DNA from: Candidatus Saccharimonadota bacterium
GTDB taxonomy: Bacteria; Patescibacteriota; Saccharimonadia; Saccharimonadales; Saccharimonadaceae
DNA: 57,057 bases
Reading direction: 5' to 3'
NCBI GenBank assembly: GCA_027312165.1
Contig: DAICXN010000001.1
Span: 110,527 to 167,583, forward strand
In this document: piece by piece, positions 24,242 to 37,551 of the stretch
Position numbering within the stretch: position 1 is the stretch's first letter
Layout: every line of letters starts with the position of its first letter
Translations under genes and position numbers: made by a program
The notes under the pieces: model-generated
Database searches by the model: none
What the model was told of the DNA's origin: nothing
Seen by the model: the letters and a program-made list of their open reading frames with translations, nothing else

Positions 24242-24472
24242 TTACTCTGCCCCGGTCCCTTCCCGGCTCTTGTTCAGTCGGTCTTGGCGCCTGTGCTTTA
24301 TGTTGCGAATCGATAGAAACCCAACACTAACTACCATGACGGCGGCCATTGGGATGCCAAGGACTATCCAAACAACCAGCTTTAATGGTAGATCGATCAA
24401 TCGATCTTTTGGCAGCTTCTTGGCTGGACGCGCAGACCTCCTGGTAAAACGTGGACGAGACTCTCTCTCCAC
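24242..24472 (-). CDS. Small single-pass membrane protein (76 aa)
   Basis: A basic N-terminus (RPRFTRRSARPAKKLPK), one hydrophobic helix (about 31-53, LKLVVWIVLGIPMAAVMVVSVGF) and a basic C-terminus. No family recognised. The GTG at 24472 is chosen over the one at 24481 because AGGAGG ends eight bases before it. A TGC-TACAAT box lies about 30 bases upstream, back to back with the ABC-F promoter. Confidence 0.6.
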   Translation of the reverse strand: MERESRPRFTRRSARPAKKLPKDRLIDLPLKLVVWIVLGIPMAAVMVVSVGFLSIRNIKHRRQDRLNKSREGTGAE

Positions 24473-24515
24473 CGCTCTCACCTCCTCCGAGTGTGACGGG
24501 TTTCATTGTAGCATG

Positions 24516-24521
24516 TATAAT
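24516..24521 (+). promoter_or_regulatory. -10 box (TATAAT) of the ABC-F gene
   Basis: TATAAT ends seven bases before the ATG at 24529. This decides the start against several in-frame codons further upstream, which would lie inside or before the promoter. A divergent TGC-TACAAT for the small membrane protein overlaps this region. Confidence 0.6.
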
Positions 24522-24528
24522 GGGCCGG

Positions 24529-26175
24529 ATGATAGCGGATATTCACATCACCGAAAAATCATTTGGCGACAAGAGCTTAATCAGAAATGTTAAGTTTAGT
24601 GTTGATGATGGGGAGAAGGTTGGCGTTGTCGGACGTAATGGAGTCGGCAAAAGTACTCTTTTTGGCATTTTGACCGGCAAAGACAATGACTTTACTGGTG
24701 ACGTTATCTATCGTCGAGGAGTTACAGTCGCCTCGACTGCACAGGAGCATCACGGCGTTGGAGATAGCTCGGTGATGAGCTATGTTCTTGGCGGCTTGCC
24801 GGAGTATAGCCAGCTCAAAGAGATAATTGACACCTACCCCGAAAAGATGGGCGACAACATGAGGCTAATTGACGCATACACCGAAGCGCTCGCTCGCTTT
24901 GACGATAAGGGATTTTATCAAATTGAAGAAAAGATTGAACGAGAGCTCGAAGCTTTCCAGTTGGATGGGGTGGCGTATCGTCCCCTCTCATCTTTGAGCG
25001 GTGGACAGAAGCGGCTGATCGAGATAGTCAAAATTATGCACTCAGATGCGCACTTAGCACTAATTGACGAGCCGACCAACCACATGGACTATGTGGCCAA
25101 GCAGCAGTTTATCGATTGGATGAAATCGGCTCGCGAGGCCATGCTGGTTATCACGCACGACCGTGATGTACTAAAGGAGGTCGATCGGATAATCGAGCTC
25201 AAGGACGGCGAGTGCGTTAGTTATAAGGGTAACTATGATGCTTACCTAAGGCAGAACACCCAGCAGACAGCTACCGGCATGAATGATTATGAGCATATCG
25301 AAAAGCGCATGGTTAATCTCAAGCAGAAAATTCTCGACTATCAGCGCCTAAAAGAAAAATCCCGAAACCCTGGTACTATCCAAAAGTTTAAACGGCTTGA
25401 GACGGAATCTCGCGAAGAGTTGGCGGAGCTCGAGCAGGTTGAGCGGCCAAGTTTTTGGATTGACCGGGATTCAGTGGAGAGTCTCGATTACAAAACAGCT
25501 GCTCGTTACGGGAAATTCAAAGCAAAGAACATCCGGATCGGCCTAAAGGATGATCAGAGTCGATCTAGTCATGTGCTGGTAAGGGTCGCTGATTTGGCTT
25601 TAGGCTATGGCAGCGAGCCTTTGTTTGAAGGTATAAATATCGACCTGCGCGAAGGAGAGAGCGTTGAGATTAGGGGTCGAAACGGGGCGGGCAAAACAAC
25701 CTTGATCCGAACTTTGCTTAACGGACCGGCTAGTCAGGTCAAAGTTTTTGCTGGTGAAATGATTATTGACAGCCGGACGAGAATTGGGGTGTACGAGCAG
25801 GAAATCAGCGAGCATTTGCTTGGCGACGCTCTGGAGGCTGCCATTGAAAAGCTTTATCTTGATCGCGGACTTGCAATTTCAGATACAAAAATTCGCCAAC
25901 TCTGTGCTGACTACTTGTTTACGAACGCCGATAGGTCTACTCCAATAGCAAGGTTGAGTGGTGGCCAAAAGTCACGCTTTCAGTTAATAGCGATGCTTGC
26001 AAATGACCCGCAACTACTGATACTTGACGAGCCAACAAACCACTTAGACCTACCAAGCATCGAAGAGCTCGAGTCGGCGCTGCAAAAATACTCCGGCGCA
26101 ATACTCTATGTCAGCCATGACAATTATTTTCGTGAGAAGCTCGGCGGAGAGGTAGTTCAAGTAGGCCAGAAATAA
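24529..26175 (+). CDS. ABC-F family ATPase (translation factor type, Uup/EttA-like)
   Basis: Two ABC ATPase domains in one soluble chain with no membrane part, 548 residues. Domain 1 has GRNGVGKST (about 37-45), LSGGQKR and LALIDEPTNHMD. Domain 2 has GRNGAGKTT, LSGGQKSRF and LLILDEPTNHLD. The charged linker of about 80 residues (YEHIEKRMVNLKQKI onwards) is the P-site tRNA interaction motif of ABC-F proteins, which act on the ribosome E site or confer ribosome protection. The subclass cannot be fixed by eye. A strong hairpin terminator follows immediately. Confidence 0.93.
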   Translation: MIADIHITEKSFGDKSLIRNVKFSVDDGEKVGVVGRNGVGKSTLFGILTGKDNDFTGDVIYRRGVTVASTAQEHHGVGDSSVMSYVLGGLPEYSQLKEIIDTYPEKMGDNMRLIDAYTEALARFDDKGFYQIEEKIERELEAFQLDGVAYRPLSSLSGGQKRLIEIVKIMHSDAHLALIDEPTNHMDYVAKQQFIDWMKSAREAMLVITHDRDVLKEVDRIIELKDGECVSYKGNYDAYLRQNTQQTATGMNDYEHIEKRMVNLKQKILDYQRLKEKSRNPGTIQKFKRLETESREELAELEQVERPSFWIDRDSVESLDYKTAARYGKFKAKNIRIGLKDDQSRSSHVLVRVADLALGYGSEPLFEGINIDLREGESVEIRGRNGAGKTTLIRTLLNGPASQVKVFAGEMIIDSRTRIGVYEQEISEHLLGDALEAAIEKLYLDRGLAISDTKIRQLCADYLFTNADRSTPIARLSGGQKSRFQLIAMLANDPQLLILDEPTNHLDLPSIEELESALQKYSGAILYVSHDNYFREKLGGEVVQVGQK

Positions 26176-26223: not shown

Positions 26224-26511
26224 TTACTCGCTGATGAGTCCGTTTTTGCGCAGCGCGTCCTCTAGCTTTGGTCGATCAAAGCCAAGGATCATTTCACCAG
26301 CAATATCGGTGACTGGCACACCCTGGAAGTTGCCGCCGTTCTTTGATAGTAGCTCATCACGCGCAGCTGGTTCTGACTCGATGTCTTTTGCTGTAAACTC
26401 AACTCCGAGTTTCTTTAGCCACTCCATTTCAGTGTGGCAAAAAGCACACCAGCTAGTCGAATAGACTGTTACTTGTGCATCTTTATGGGTTGGTGTCGTG
26501 TCTTCGCTCAT
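26224..26511 (-). CDS. Glutaredoxin-like thiol-disulfide protein (95 aa)
   Basis: Thioredoxin fold with the active site WCAFC (about 21-25) after the strand VTVYSTS, and the conserved GVPVTDI cis-Pro segment (about 64-70), as in glutaredoxins/NrdH. The length is right. A leader of about 30 bases with GGGGAG before the ATG is preceded by TGA-TACAAT, so this gene uses a normal ribosome site. The reductant partner is not in the window. Confidence 0.9.
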   Translation of the reverse strand: MSEDTTPTHKDAQVTVYSTSWCAFCHTEMEWLKKLGVEFTAKDIESEPAARDELLSKNGGNFQGVPVTDIAGEMILGFDRPKLEDALRKNGLISE

Positions 26512-26622: not shown

Positions 26623-28422
26623 ATGAGGCTAAAATCTAACAAAATCGAAGCATTTACCCTGCCAACTGTCGTCATTGTGTCCATCGTCATGCTTAGCCTT
26701 ATGGTCTCGGCTTTTCAGTTTCTCTCAGCATCTTCGATAGCTCTACGTGACCAGTACTATAATCAGCTAGCTCGCGAGGCCGCAGAAGCTGGTGCACGCA
26801 GAATCGAGGAGTGCTGGAAGAGCGGATCAGACATACTGACAACTGCTACTATCACGCCCCGAACTAACTGTAGCGGTACCAGTCTGTCTACTCAAGTCGA
26901 CTATGTTATGAGTAATGGCCCGCTAGTCACTACTTATTCGGGTAAAGTAGTCAACCGTGAGGCGGACGGGCATAGGCGAGCTCTAGTGACTGGCATCACC
27001 AACCTAAATGGAGCCTCTGGATCGACACCCATAAAGTCCTATACGGCCGAGACTGTTCTTGAGAAAACTCTCGATAACGATCCCGTTGGTGCAAGAGCTA
27101 GTCAGCGATATTGGTATTTTGGTGTGGGCGCGGGACTGGACTTTAGAAATTCTGGGACAGCTTGGCCACTGCCAATCAACTCTCCGCCAAGCGGCAGCTG
27201 GGCTTTTGAGGGGTCGACTGTTGTGAGTGATCGCAGTGGTAACTTGGTTTTTTGGACAAATGGTCAGCAAGTATGGGGAAAGAACGGCGCACTTGCTCAA
27301 AATGCTAGCGGCCTGCTTGGTTCAAGTTCGGCCACCCAGGCGGTTGCCGCCTTCCCTCTCAACCAGGAACAAACGCGTTACGGAATCATATCTAACACGA
27401 CAGGTAGCTCCGATAGCGAATACACCGGAACGCCTTTCACTCCATCGCAAAAGTGGCGTCTATACTTTTCCGAGTACGACACGACCCTAAACAATGGTAA
27501 TGGCGGCATAACGGCTAATAGGAAAAATATCGATCTGTGGTCTGCTGGCACCAGCTATGGCTATGCTTCTGAGGCTCTAAATGCCATGCCAAACCATGAT
27601 GGTACTGGCTACTGGGTGTATACATTTCCAAAGGATACACCGGCAACACCACGTGGGGATCTTATTTACGGCTTCTTGATTGGGCCAGACGGCAATGTCC
27701 GTCAACGTATCACCTATACGCTACCAACTGATCCGCTGCTTTGTTCGGGTGGATCGGTTTACGGGACTATTAACTTTAATGATGACTATTCTCAGATGTT
27801 AGTGATGATTGGAACAAGCGGCTGTCAGACCACCTACCCGTCAACCGACGCCCGTAGACAAGTTTCAGGGACCGTTTATTTGCTTAATACAAATCGTGCT
27901 ACTGGCTATCCAGTGCAGCAGAAAGTATGGAACTCAAAGGTGAACCATGCCGTTACCGATAGCAGTCCTCGAAATGCTGGCTATAGTGCTGATTTTTCGC
28001 CAAACGGACAGTATGTATATGTCACCCAGTTGTATCCTGGATGGCTGACACGCTACACGTTATCAGCTGCAGATGTATCAACAACTCAGCACACTCTTAG
28101 CCACACATCATCTGGCACACCTACAGTACCAGCTGCTGGTAATGCGGCGACTTGGAACGGCGGCGGGCAGATTAGGCGCGGGCCAGACGGCAGGATGTAT
28201 ATATCGCGAAATCCTTACACTGGAACATATCCCGTGCCGGACTCAGCTGAGAGAAGCAGGATTAGCTGTATAACGAACCCTAATGCAACTGGTTATCCAA
28301 CGCTTGCGACATTGGGCTTTCAGAATCCTTGCACGGGCGTGACACTCAATGCTGGCACCTATAGTTGGTTCGGGTTGCCGCAAATGGTGACAGTGTATAC
28401 GCCGAAGATTATTTACTACTAA
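26623..28422 (+). CDS. Prepilin-like N-terminus fused to a propeller-like domain; candidate pilus adhesin (599 aa)
   Basis: Residues 1-60 look like a PilX-type minor prepilin: basic leader ending IEA, then FTLPTVVIVSIVMLSLMV, then an amphipathic helix with AREAAEAGARRIEEC. Position +5, normally Glu, is Thr or Pro here depending on the cleavage site. From about residue 155 the protein changes to a beta-rich domain with RYWYFGVGAGLDF, GNLVFWTNGQQVWGK, GLLGSSSATQAV, HDGTGYWVYTF and GYSADFSPNGQYVYV. This pattern closely recalls the N-terminal propeller of Bacteroidetes gliding/T9SS type B surface proteins (WYFG.GAGLDF, LLFYTDG..VWN, S.TQS). Several Cys pairs are present. Likely displayed on a pilus; no database search done. 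Confidence 0.8.
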   Translation: MRLKSNKIEAFTLPTVVIVSIVMLSLMVSAFQFLSASSIALRDQYYNQLAREAAEAGARRIEECWKSGSDILTTATITPRTNCSGTSLSTQVDYVMSNGPLVTTYSGKVVNREADGHRRALVTGITNLNGASGSTPIKSYTAETVLEKTLDNDPVGARASQRYWYFGVGAGLDFRNSGTAWPLPINSPPSGSWAFEGSTVVSDRSGNLVFWTNGQQVWGKNGALAQNASGLLGSSSATQAVAAFPLNQEQTRYGIISNTTGSSDSEYTGTPFTPSQKWRLYFSEYDTTLNNGNGGITANRKNIDLWSAGTSYGYASEALNAMPNHDGTGYWVYTFPKDTPATPRGDLIYGFLIGPDGNVRQRITYTLPTDPLLCSGGSVYGTINFNDDYSQMLVMIGTSGCQTTYPSTDARRQVSGTVYLLNTNRATGYPVQQKVWNSKVNHAVTDSSPRNAGYSADFSPNGQYVYVTQLYPGWLTRYTLSAADVSTTQHTLSHTSSGTPTVPAAGNAATWNGGGQIRRGPDGRMYISRNPYTGTYPVPDSAERSRISCITNPNATGYPTLATLGFQNPCTGVTLNAGTYSWFGLPQMVTVYTPKIIYY

Positions 28423-28425
28423 ACA

Positions 28426-28659
28426 TTAACGAGATGCTCTAGTCAGGTGCCATTTGCCGCATATCTGACAATTGTAGACACGTAGTTTTAGGCTGGGCTG
28501 CTGGAGCATTTGAACCTCGGCGGCATCCAAGGCCTGTTTCTGGCTGGGGTAGCGACGCTTGCTATGGCACGCTAGATCTAGCGCCAACACCATATCTGGT
28601 GTAGTTGACGCTATATGTGGGGTTTTCGCCCGCTTTGAAGGGTAATTTTTGCGAGGCAT
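28426..28659 (-). CDS. Small zinc-ribbon-like protein (77 aa)
   Basis: Basic soluble protein with Cys at LACHSKRRYPS and a C-terminal CQICGKWHLT motif, the sort of CxxC-xx-WHLT end seen in small zinc-binding proteins of this phylum. I chose the ATG at 28659 because a TATACT box lies 11 bases upstream and a longer reading frame (to 29001) would run through the ATP synthase promoter. Divergent from the ATP operon; nucleic-acid binding is plausible but unproven. Confidence 0.65.
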   Translation of the reverse strand: MPRKNYPSKRAKTPHIASTTPDMVLALDLACHSKRRYPSQKQALDAAEVQMLQQPSLKLRVYNCQICGKWHLTRASR

Positions 28660-28686
28660 AATCACTTGCCAGTATACGCCAGTTAG

Positions 28687-28695
28687 TGGTATTAT
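28687..28695 (+). promoter_or_regulatory. Extended -10 promoter of the ATP synthase operon
   Basis: TGG-TATTAT (28687-28695) ends seven bases before the ATG of atpI at 28703, so the whole nine-gene mRNA is predicted to start at or next to the first codon. Confidence 0.6.
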
Positions 28696-28702
28696 AGAAG
28701 TA

Positions 28703-28969
28703 ATGGAGAGTAAACCCCCTGTTTCTGATGGCCAAAAAACACCTGATTCTGAACCGGTGGGTATTATCTTAGCTACCATTGGTGACACAACCTGGCGAAT
28801 GTTCGTGCCTTCGGTCGGCTTTACTCTGCTTGGTGTGTGGCTGGACGGACAATTCGACACCAAGCCATGGCTAATGGTTTCGGGTATTTTAATAGGTGTG
28901 CTCGGATCATTTCTATTGGTAAAAAAGCAGATATCAGGAATTAAAAATAAGCGGAGGTCTAAGGTCTGA
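28703..28969 (+). CDS. atpI: AtpI/AtpZ-type F0F1 assembly protein (88 aa)
   Basis: Two membrane helices (about 32-50, WRMFVPSVGFTLLGVWL, and 57-75, WLMVSGILIGVLGSFLLV) with a short loop and a basic C-terminus, as in AtpI/AtpZ, which helps assemble the c-ring and may pass Mg2+. The ATG at 28703 fits the promoter and is preferred over in-frame codons upstream. Its TGA shares one base with the atpB ATG. Confidence 0.8.
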   Translation: MESKPPVSDGQKTPDSEPVGIILATIGDTTWRMFVPSVGFTLLGVWLDGQFDTKPWLMVSGILIGVLGSFLLVKKQISGIKNKRRSKV

Positions 28970-29793
28970 TGTTTAACTTGTTTGCGGCCGCTGGACCACA
29001 CATATCAGTCAAAGCCGAAGAAGTCTTTAGCTTGGGCGGTGTCAGTATCACAAACTCGCACATGCTTGGTGCGTTAGGCCTAGTGATTTTGGTTTGGCTG
29101 TTCTTTCGAACCAGGTCAACTGTTATGGGCCGCAAAAAAGCTAACTTTGCCACTCGATTAATCACTTGGACTTTTGAGGGTCTCTACGGCACAGTTAAGC
29201 AAGTTATCCCAGATGAAAAGTGGGCAAAAAAGGTTGCTCCACTGGCGATTACTATATTTTTCTTTGTGATTGCTCAATATTGGATGGGTATTTTACCGTT
29301 CGTTGGCTCAATTACAGTCGGTGATACGCCGCTATTCCGTCCGTTCGTCGCTGATCTCAACATGACGTTTGCCCTAGCGATCATCACCATCGTGGCAGCG
29401 CAAATATACGCCATTCGCTACATGGGCTTTCGAGGCAATTTAGGCCGCTACTTCTTCAATCCCCTAAAGGATCCAATCATGGCATTTGTTGGCATATTGG
29501 AGCTAGTTGCTGAATTTTCTCGCCTACTTGGTCTTAGCTTCCGTTTGTTCGGAAACGTTCTGGCTGGCGAAGTTCTGTTGATTATGATTGCTTACTTGAC
29601 TCAATACTTGTCGCCAATCGCCCTGCAGCCATTTTACATATTTGAGCTGTTTATTGGTGGAATCCAGGCGTATATTTTCTTCATGTTAACTGTGGTGTTT
29701 ATTTCACTTGGCCTAAGCCATCACGGCGACGAGGCTGCTGACGACGATCATTCCCCTTCCCTGACTAAAGCAGCGGTCGGCAATGATACATAA
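28969..29793 (+). CDS. atpB: ATP synthase F0 subunit a
   Basis: Proton-channel stator subunit, 274 residues, five to six helices. The essential Arg is in LSFRLFGNVLAGE (about 197), and the C-terminal helix FELFIGGIQAYIFFMLTVVFI (ends FELFI...VVFI) carries the conserved Gln. An AFVGILELVAEFSRLLGLS segment precedes it. Works with subunit c to convert ion flow into rotation. Second gene of the atp operon. Confidence 0.95.
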   Translation: MFNLFAAAGPHISVKAEEVFSLGGVSITNSHMLGALGLVILVWLFFRTRSTVMGRKKANFATRLITWTFEGLYGTVKQVIPDEKWAKKVAPLAITIFFFVIAQYWMGILPFVGSITVGDTPLFRPFVADLNMTFALAIITIVAAQIYAIRYMGFRGNLGRYFFNPLKDPIMAFVGILELVAEFSRLLGLSFRLFGNVLAGEVLLIMIAYLTQYLSPIALQPFYIFELFIGGIQAYIFFMLTVVFISLGLSHHGDEAADDDHSPSLTKAAVGNDT

Positions 29794-37148: not shown

Positions 37149-37478
37149 GACTTGGTCGTATAGGTTCTGCTTGCGTCGAACCGTTAGGTTCGGAAAAGTG
37201 AATCTCATATAGACCGAAGATCTATGCCAGTGCCACGAGCTGCACTTGATTGGCATAAACTGGTGCACGTAAGGCGTAGGAGCCGCCCGCGACTGGTACA
37301 CCATACCGTCCTGCCTGGCTTCCCGAATGGGCTTGGCGCGGGGCGGCGTCTCGTGTTGACGGTTGATTTTGGGGCGAGCGCCGGATCGGGGGATGACCCG
37401 GCGCTCGCTGGCAGGTGGCAATGGCCACCGCTCTCCCGGGTCAATGCGAGCCTTCCCCAGCTCGTCTTACTCAACCCG
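37149..37478 (-). ncRNA. GC-rich structured RNA; candidate tmRNA (ssrA)-like transcript
   Basis: This stretch is about 58-75% GC in different 60-base blocks, against roughly 47% around it, and holds strong pairing: an 11-base-pair stem with arms starting GCGAGCGCCGG (about 37375-37410), an overlapping GACCCGG/CCGGGTC pair with an inner GGTGGC/GCCACC hairpin, and ATAGA/TCTAT plus CGAACC/GGTTCG hairpins near the 3' end. Inside it a short frame follows CAGTC-GCG and ends VALA-stop, as in tmRNA tags. No 5' GGGG/TTCGAC motif and no 3' T-arm with CCA belonging to this RNA were found, so a classical tmRNA cannot be assembled. Could instead be another structured RNA or precursor. Confidence 0.4.
37222..37290 (-). 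other. tmRNA-like tag reading frame (22 codons plus stop)
   Basis: Reading from GCG at 37290 on the minus strand, directly after CAGTC, the frame begins AGGSYALRA, continues and ends NQVQLVALA before TAG at 37224-37222. In E. coli tmRNA the resume codon follows TAGTC and the tag contains YALAA; in B. subtilis the tag ends NQNVALAA. The stop lies beside a small hairpin (ATAGA/TCTAT), as in tmRNA. At 22 residues it would be long for a tag, and the end is VALA rather than ALAA. Confidence 0.4.
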
Positions 37479-37551
37479 TCGGCACGACTGGATTCGAACC
37501 AGCGTCCTCCCCAACTGTGGTTGGGGTGCTCTACCGCTGAGCTACGCACCG
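37479..37551 (-). tRNA. Atypical tRNA or tRNA-like gene, anticodon uncertain
   Basis: Complete cloverleaf on the minus strand: acceptor CGGTGCG/CGTGCCG (two G-U type pairs), TA at 8-9, D-arm GCTC-AGCGGTA-GAGC, and T-arm GCTGG-TTCGAAT-CCAGT. The anticodon arm is 18 rather than 17 bases: CCCCA/TGGGG around the eight-base loop ACCACAGT, or a seven-pair stem closed by CACA. There is no T at position 33, so a normal anticodon cannot be read (CAC is the nearest). No CCA is encoded, unlike the Glu and Leu tRNAs here. It may be a degenerate or specialised tRNA. Confidence 0.6.

Follow-up and report, generated by a model that had tools for sequence, protein, structure and literature searches.

A probable PilX-like modular minor pilin with a predicted beta-propeller head, a proposed host adhesin, encoded beside the ATP synthase operon of a Saccharibacterium

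What kind of protein starts like a type IV prepilin, continues as a large beta domain and is encoded beside an ATP synthase operon? The question is raised by an open reading frame (ORF) of a Candidatus Saccharimonadota bacterium of the family Saccharimonadaceae (assembly GCA_027312165.1, genome G000; 665 kb in 35 contigs, 89.5% complete), found on the stretch of 57,057 nucleotides that was analysed here and is called the window (contig 11 of the genome, DAICXN010000001.1). The ORF (26623-28422, plus strand) begins with ATG and encodes 599 amino acids (aa), and its exact boundaries agree with the ORF list. Its product is probably an accessory modular minor pilin that carries a propeller adhesin for the host cell.

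The whole protein, used as a single query, had no match in Pfam, NCBIfam or the PDB, so that profile, collection and structure searches were required; the viral contigs searched held no relative either. Full-length relatives with both stem and head (33-36% identity) are present in three congeners and on two additional named contigs of Saccharibacteria, and the fusion is therefore not a chance reading frame. The preliminary description, made from the letters alone, had claimed a prepilin-like N-terminus fused to a beta domain, and the ORF, the quoted motifs and the homologous fusions of the relatives all confirm this. The motifs were located at residues 11-25 (FTLPTVVIVSIVMLS) and 50-64 (AREAAEAGARRIEEC) of the stem and in the head (WYFGVGAGLDF, LVFWTNGQQVWG, GLLGSSSATQ, GYWVYTF and SPNGQYVYV). 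Past the cysteine pair and a small beta region, the C-terminal domain comprises 443 residues.

The N-terminus reads MRLKSNKIEA-FTLPTVVIVSIVMLSLMVSAFQFL, and the part after the leader begins with FTLPTVVIVSIVML. The features of a class III signal peptide are present, namely a short basic leader, Gly or Ala before Phe, and about 20 hydrophobic residues. An alignment of 13 stems has in common [G/A]-[F/Y]-x-L, mostly followed by P-T-V, then the hydrophobic stretch, QYYxQLAREAAEAG, Cys64 and Cys83, and a beta region. A first search matched 21 of 61 related genomes, and profile A3, made from the 13 stems, matched at least one gene in 29 of the 61. The stems make up a PilX-like family, widespread in the window's family, whose usual head is the RCC1 propeller. 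The NCBIfam model of the prepilin N-terminus, NF007660, is resembled by 11 of the 13 stems (best 1.2e-5, all below the cut-off), and a helix of 55 residues is predicted by AlphaFold2 (13-67 in the full-length model, 14-66 in the stem-only model). Position +5 is Thr, in agreement with the earlier remark that the usual Glu is lost, a loss that may, as proposed there, point to a tip location; the related stems likewise have no Glu5, and +4 is a conserved Pro. Glu5 is dispensable in subunits of the GspK/PilX type. The chain ends in Tyr or Phe in 21 of 25 stem proteins with various heads, as against 1 of 38 long ORFs of the window, and this shared aromatic end hints at a last strand that returns to the stem. 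The strongest argument for pilin identity is one of gene context: in the congener G002, an RCC1-headed homologue of the stem (L100:2751-6193) stands directly after pilA2/pilV2/pilW2-type pilin genes, in the same kind of pilin cluster as pilX2 of Nanosynbacter lyticus (PMC12206443).

Several observations weigh against a pilin. Residue -1, at the presumed cleavage site, is Ala where nearly all relatives have Gly, which may lower the efficiency of cleavage. No single stem reaches the cut-off for the Pfam methylation motif (N_methyl) or for PilX_N, with weak single matches only. Foldseek with the stem model alone found no significant solved pilin (best E 0.25), so that the pilin assignment is based on sequence family and context. 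The gene is also distant from the pilus operons. All this would suit an uncleaved N-terminal membrane anchor, that is, a cell-surface adhesin never built into a pilus, and the same head is membrane- or wall-anchored without a pilin stem in two cases: in G029 it follows a signal peptide and is accompanied by Listeria-Bacteroides repeats and a C-terminal membrane segment, and in L061 (= G079) signal peptide and head are joined to a fibronectin type III domain and again a C-terminal membrane segment. A plain anchor is nevertheless unlikely, given that the short basic leader with Gly/Ala before Phe is conserved across the stems, that the helix is unusually long, that a stem homologue lies within a pilin operon, and that most stems resemble the prepilin model as described.

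The head is predicted to be a propeller with good confidence by both AlphaFold2 and Foldseek, as the preliminary description had proposed. The full-length model (35 sequences; predicted local distance difference test, pLDDT, 81.7; predicted TM-score, pTM, 0.80) has about 25 strands past residue 160, the grouping of which suggests six or seven modelled blades. In the PDB, lactonase-type and WD40 propellers match best, with E from 3e-9 and a TM-score to the target mostly of 0.3-0.57. Among the top fold matches are 3scy, 3fgb and 4qrj, all putative 6-phosphogluconolactonases, and a profile of five heads compared with solved structures matched 4qrj at E=7.8e-5. For these reasons the head might be taken for an extracellular enzyme of the lactonase-propeller type, not an adhesin. 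However, propeller folds broadly match one another, no Pfam lactonase match is found in the protein at E up to 10, the head's relatives occur within long adhesin-like repeat proteins, and the other heads on related stems share no common enzymatic family, all of which makes an enzyme very improbable. The PilY1 propeller (PF05567) likewise has no match at E up to 10. RCC1 has none in the head, whereas the RCC1-headed relatives score E far below 1e-10. In base composition the head matches the genome and thus gives no sign of recent transfer.

The kinship of the head was earlier sought in the gliding and type IX secretion system (T9SS) proteins, and this holds in part. A tblastn search of plasmid records found Hymenobacter proteins at 5e-16, 1e-12 and 2e-11 (the best with 26% identity over 93% of the head), which are annotated as gliding motility-associated C-terminal domain-containing proteins or adjoin such genes. 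However, the closest homologues beyond Saccharibacteria are actinobacterial wall adhesins, with 33-36% identity over nearly the entire head. These carriers are proteins of 700-3100 aa with DUF11-like repeats, several of them with wall-anchor-like C-termini. The genome contigs hold 44 loci that encode head relatives, in Saccharibacteria, Actinobacteria (Tessaracoccus, Nocardioides, Microbacterium, Patulibacter, Gulosibacter), two Rhodanobacteraceae, and many Bacteroidota (Pontibacter, Saprospiraceae, Flavobacteriaceae, Dysgonomonas), where the head is mostly the N-terminus of secreted proteins. No T9SS C-terminal sorting domain was found in the window protein with Pfam or NCBIfam; the chain stops at the propeller and a 10-residue tail. 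In the head tree, the pilin-borne heads, a Gulosibacter fragment and the head of genome G354 form one group (98/99) among actinobacterial heads, and the Bacteroidota heads are separate (100/100). A derivation of the head from Actinobacteria was considered, given its position close to them in the tree. However, neither the monophyly of the Saccharibacterial heads (p=0.077) nor that of the actinobacterial heads (p=0.18) was rejected by the approximately unbiased (AU) test, so that exchange in either direction is possible.

The survey of Saccharibacteria suggested in the preliminary description found the WYFG-type head, that of the window protein, in only 6 of 393 genomes of the order, whereas the stem with other heads is common. 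Stem and head are fused in the window's genome, in the congeners G002, G004 and G008 (L046, L058 and L045), in SACCH1 (L047 = G184) and in UBA6575 (L048). A seventh fusion locus is found in Gulosibacter macacae (L060), where it is split by a transposase gene of insertion sequence (IS) type. This Saccharibacteria-type pilin-propeller gene in an actinobacterial assembly (L060:3820-8268, NZ_RQVS01000021.1; G+C about 60%), with its IS110-like insertion and a PilA-like pilin gene after it, represents either gene transfer between an epibiont and a possible host, or else contamination. In G354, the head lies within a secreted protein of 1142 aa (L096:5877-9305, minus strand), the gene of which is directly upstream of pilM1-N1-O1-B1-T. 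The homologue in the window's genome (L038:6292-9156), upstream of pilM1, aligns on both sides of the G354 head and is without the head. Together with the pilin fusions, this insertion indicates that the head was joined to two different pilus-linked carriers, and by its gene order the G354 protein gives the head a further link with type IV pili, distinct from the first.

Members of the family repeatedly show the gene order ABC-F, glutaredoxin, pilin, atpI-atpB (tblastn synteny), with head types that were assigned by Pfam. The WYFG-type propeller is found in the window, in L047 and in the first gene of L048. An RCC1 head is found in G023, in both tandem genes of G012 and in the second gene of L048, and RCC1 with an inserted ricin-B lectin in G006, G007, G016 and G031. 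Other heads are glycine-rich (G015), FGE-like (G024, a marginal match) or Fib_succ_major (G027). In G007 and G027 the locus was seen on the ABC-F side only, and no ABC-F gene was seen alongside in G015 and G023. The RCC1/ricin-B, FGE-like and Fib_succ_major heads are binding folds without a common chemistry, and the inserted ricin-B lectin is a likely glycan-binding addition. Ricin-B lectins within the RCC1 propeller of pilins were noted at L107:1448-3706 (minus), L114:3759-6035, L014:2158-4338, L121:3-2318 (minus) and L101:5473-7761 (minus).

The site is empty in the congeners G001, G003, G004 and G008, in which glutaredoxin is followed by atpI after a gap of about 0.3 kb; G002 has an equal gap, with no ABC-F gene within the stretch read. 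The fused gene of G002, G004 and G008 is situated elsewhere, between uvrB/a membrane protein gene and gatA. As a separate observation, uvrB of G002 and G004 (L028:2854-6423; L029:11270-14899, minus) has an intein-like insert of about 500 extra residues past the start of the P-loop, with a VHN end; the uvrB of G008 is without it. Two genera have both propeller types at the site in different species, namely that of the window (G000 and G006) and g16 (G184 and G023). Likewise, the tandem genes of UBA6575 have related stems (56% over 88 residues) and different heads. The carriers of the WYFG-type head are scattered in the stem tree, which calls for 4-5 changes, and the AU test mildly rejects placing them in a single clade (p=0.039; p=0.029 when Gulosibacter is left out). 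The conflict between the stem and head trees does no more than suggest head exchange between stems, because the stem tree has little support and is short, and its groups were chosen with earlier trees already known.

This freedom of the locus also bears on whether the main role of the protein could lie in pilus assembly or priming, with the protein as an initiator of the GspK/PilX type and the head as a ligand-free cap. The missing Glu5, as is known for GspK-type subunits, would agree with such a role, and deletion of pilX2 in N. lyticus also altered pilus number and length (PMC12206443). The gene is, however, absent from the locus in many relatives that retain both pilus machines, and so free a change of head would be unexpected in a housekeeping priming factor, which leaves a priming role improbable.

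The window's genome encodes two pilus machines. The first (C1) consists of PilM/N/O, PilB, PilT, PilC, a pilin, PilD and minor pilins, and the second (C22) of PilB, PilC, PilM, N/O-like proteins and a pilin. Two PilB-type ATPases are found in six of the seven tested carriers of the WYFG-type head, the seventh genome being fragmented. A third ATPase of the PilB/GspE type lies outside both pilus loci in most of these genomes (G000:C32:34871-35881; G008:C3:226009-227178; G004:C3:44489-45655). With the stem family, the propeller head, the gene position, the variety of heads, the two machines and the prepilin peptidase established, we infer the following course. The PilX-like stem would be cut by PilD, and the processed stem would enter one of the two type IV pili in low copy, by analogy with N. 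lyticus. Placement at the tip is probable, given a head roughly three times as large as the stem. As an adhesin, the head would then bind the host, in all likelihood an actinobacterium. This role is argued for by the head's homology to domains of surface adhesins in both Actinobacteria and Bacteroidota, by the RCC1/ricin-B, FGE-like or Fib_succ_major binding folds of the locus relatives, and by the second pilus machine of N. lyticus, which tethers hosts and in which deletion of pilX2 about halves binding, from 10.6% to 4.6% (PMC12206443). Between lineages, pilins would be gained, lost and re-headed at the site flanked by the glutaredoxin gene and the ATP synthase operon, and related epibionts may in this way become able to recognise different surfaces.

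The window gene is not PilX2 itself; this identity was rejected because G002 additionally holds an operon-type, RCC1-headed PilX2. In G004 and G008 (99% complete), no RCC1 repeat match and no second stem of the family were found, so that the fusion there may replace PilX2. Two long RCC1-repeat proteins of the window's genome (L098:2-1942, minus; L097:4424-6037, minus) were tried as alternative head-bearing pilins and set aside; no pilin stem is visible in them, and both are cut by contig ends.

Table 1. Parts of the proposed modular pilin gene and the genes that border it (window coordinates).
Feature	Position	Strand	Basis
PilX-like modular minor pilin gene (prepilin stem and propeller head), 599 aa	26623..28422	+	ORF list; full-length relatives in congeners and named contigs
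Presumed prepilin leader MRLKSNKIEA, short and basic, final Ala precedes Phe+1	26623..26652	+	Sequence; 13-stem alignment
Alpha-1 helix, residues 11-67, about 30 residues uncharged, amphipathic after	26653..26823	+	AlphaFold2
Cys64 and Cys83, probable disulfide of the pilin module	26812..26871	+	Invariant alignment columns of the stem family
Stem beta-sheet, residues 96-152	26908..27078	+	Predicted strands 96-98, 101-112, 118-129, 136-152
Beta-propeller head, about residues 157-589	27091..28389	+	Profile A1, tblastn relatives, Foldseek top matches
C-terminal tail TVYTPKIIYY, aromatic end	28390..28419	+	Shared with stems bearing other heads; model strand 594-598
ABC-F ATPase gene, bounding the conserved locus on the left	24451..26175	+	tblastn synteny
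Glutaredoxin-like gene, reversed, next to the pilin gene on its left	26224..26511	-	tblastn synteny
atpI and atpB, first genes of the ATP synthase operon, at the right edge of the conserved locus	28649..29793	+	tblastn synteny; homologue search

Between the pilin gene and atpI lies a small reversed gene (28426-28660, minus; about 77 aa, with a CxxC motif), and a similar reversed ORF is found at the equivalent place in L047. Farther off, a tRNA-like gene (37478-37551, minus) was reported by ARAGORN with a two-base, unassignable anticodon.

The pilin-propeller fusion with its host-binding role (PMC12206443) and the class of modular pilins (PMC8179133) are known already. What appears to be new is the occurrence on such stems of another propeller family, unrelated to the first, at seven loci, along with one conserved site at which the gene is missing or variously headed, and related stems with different heads within one genome. 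In the open-licence literature, no report was found of the WYFG-type head on pilins, of its actinobacterial/T9SS kinship, or of the variable-head locus. Tentatively, the site by the ATP synthase operon could be an accessory pilus-adhesin site, where unrelated heads are swapped on a common stem, one of them also borne by wall adhesins from the host phylum, and where the swap tracks, and may set, the host recognised; this wider proposal is possible and a good deal less certain than the pilin-adhesin itself. The prediction is that head type should correlate with host. For the study of how Saccharibacteria choose their hosts, a pilin with a binding head that differs among close relatives at one readily located site offers named candidates for host recognition across many genomes. 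The fusion of pilin and propeller arose with more than one propeller family, and one head family is common to epibiont pilins and host-phylum adhesins.

Among known systems, the PilY1/PilC tip adhesins are the type IV pilus propeller, as a separate, non-pilin protein (PF05567). They are like the window protein in tying a propeller to type IV pili and unlike it in being separate and of a family not matched here. The Bacteroidota T9SS/gliding proteins share a homologous N-terminal propeller, yet theirs is joined to a Sec signal peptide, Ig/PKD repeats and a T9SS C-terminal domain, and that of the window to a pilin stem. Similarly, the actinobacterial wall adhesins (Nocardioides, Microbacterium, Tessaracoccus) have the nearest heads outside Saccharibacteria, on long repeat proteins. 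Modular type IV pilins such as PilB and PilC of Streptococcus sanguinis combine a small pilin module with a large effector module, serve in adhesion and are presumed to sit at the tip (PMC8179133). They resemble the window protein in joining a pilin module to a domain that is not pilus-specific, as the head is homologous to domains of non-pilus surface proteins, and differ in that their module is vWA or a lectin, not a propeller, and in the canonical class III signal peptide of PilB (PMC8179133). The closest parallel in the same organism group is PilX2 of N. lyticus TM7x, in which a pilin with a seven-bladed RCC1 propeller promotes host binding (PMC12206443). The covalent fusion seen in the preliminary description is thus present and yet not a new device, as PilX2 precedes it. 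Both proteins have a prepilin-like stem and a beta-propeller, and the stem of the operon-type counterpart in G002 is homologous to that of the window; PilX2 is built of RCC1 repeats and encoded in a pilin cluster, whereas the window protein has a propeller of another family and is encoded at the ABC-F/ATP synthase site.
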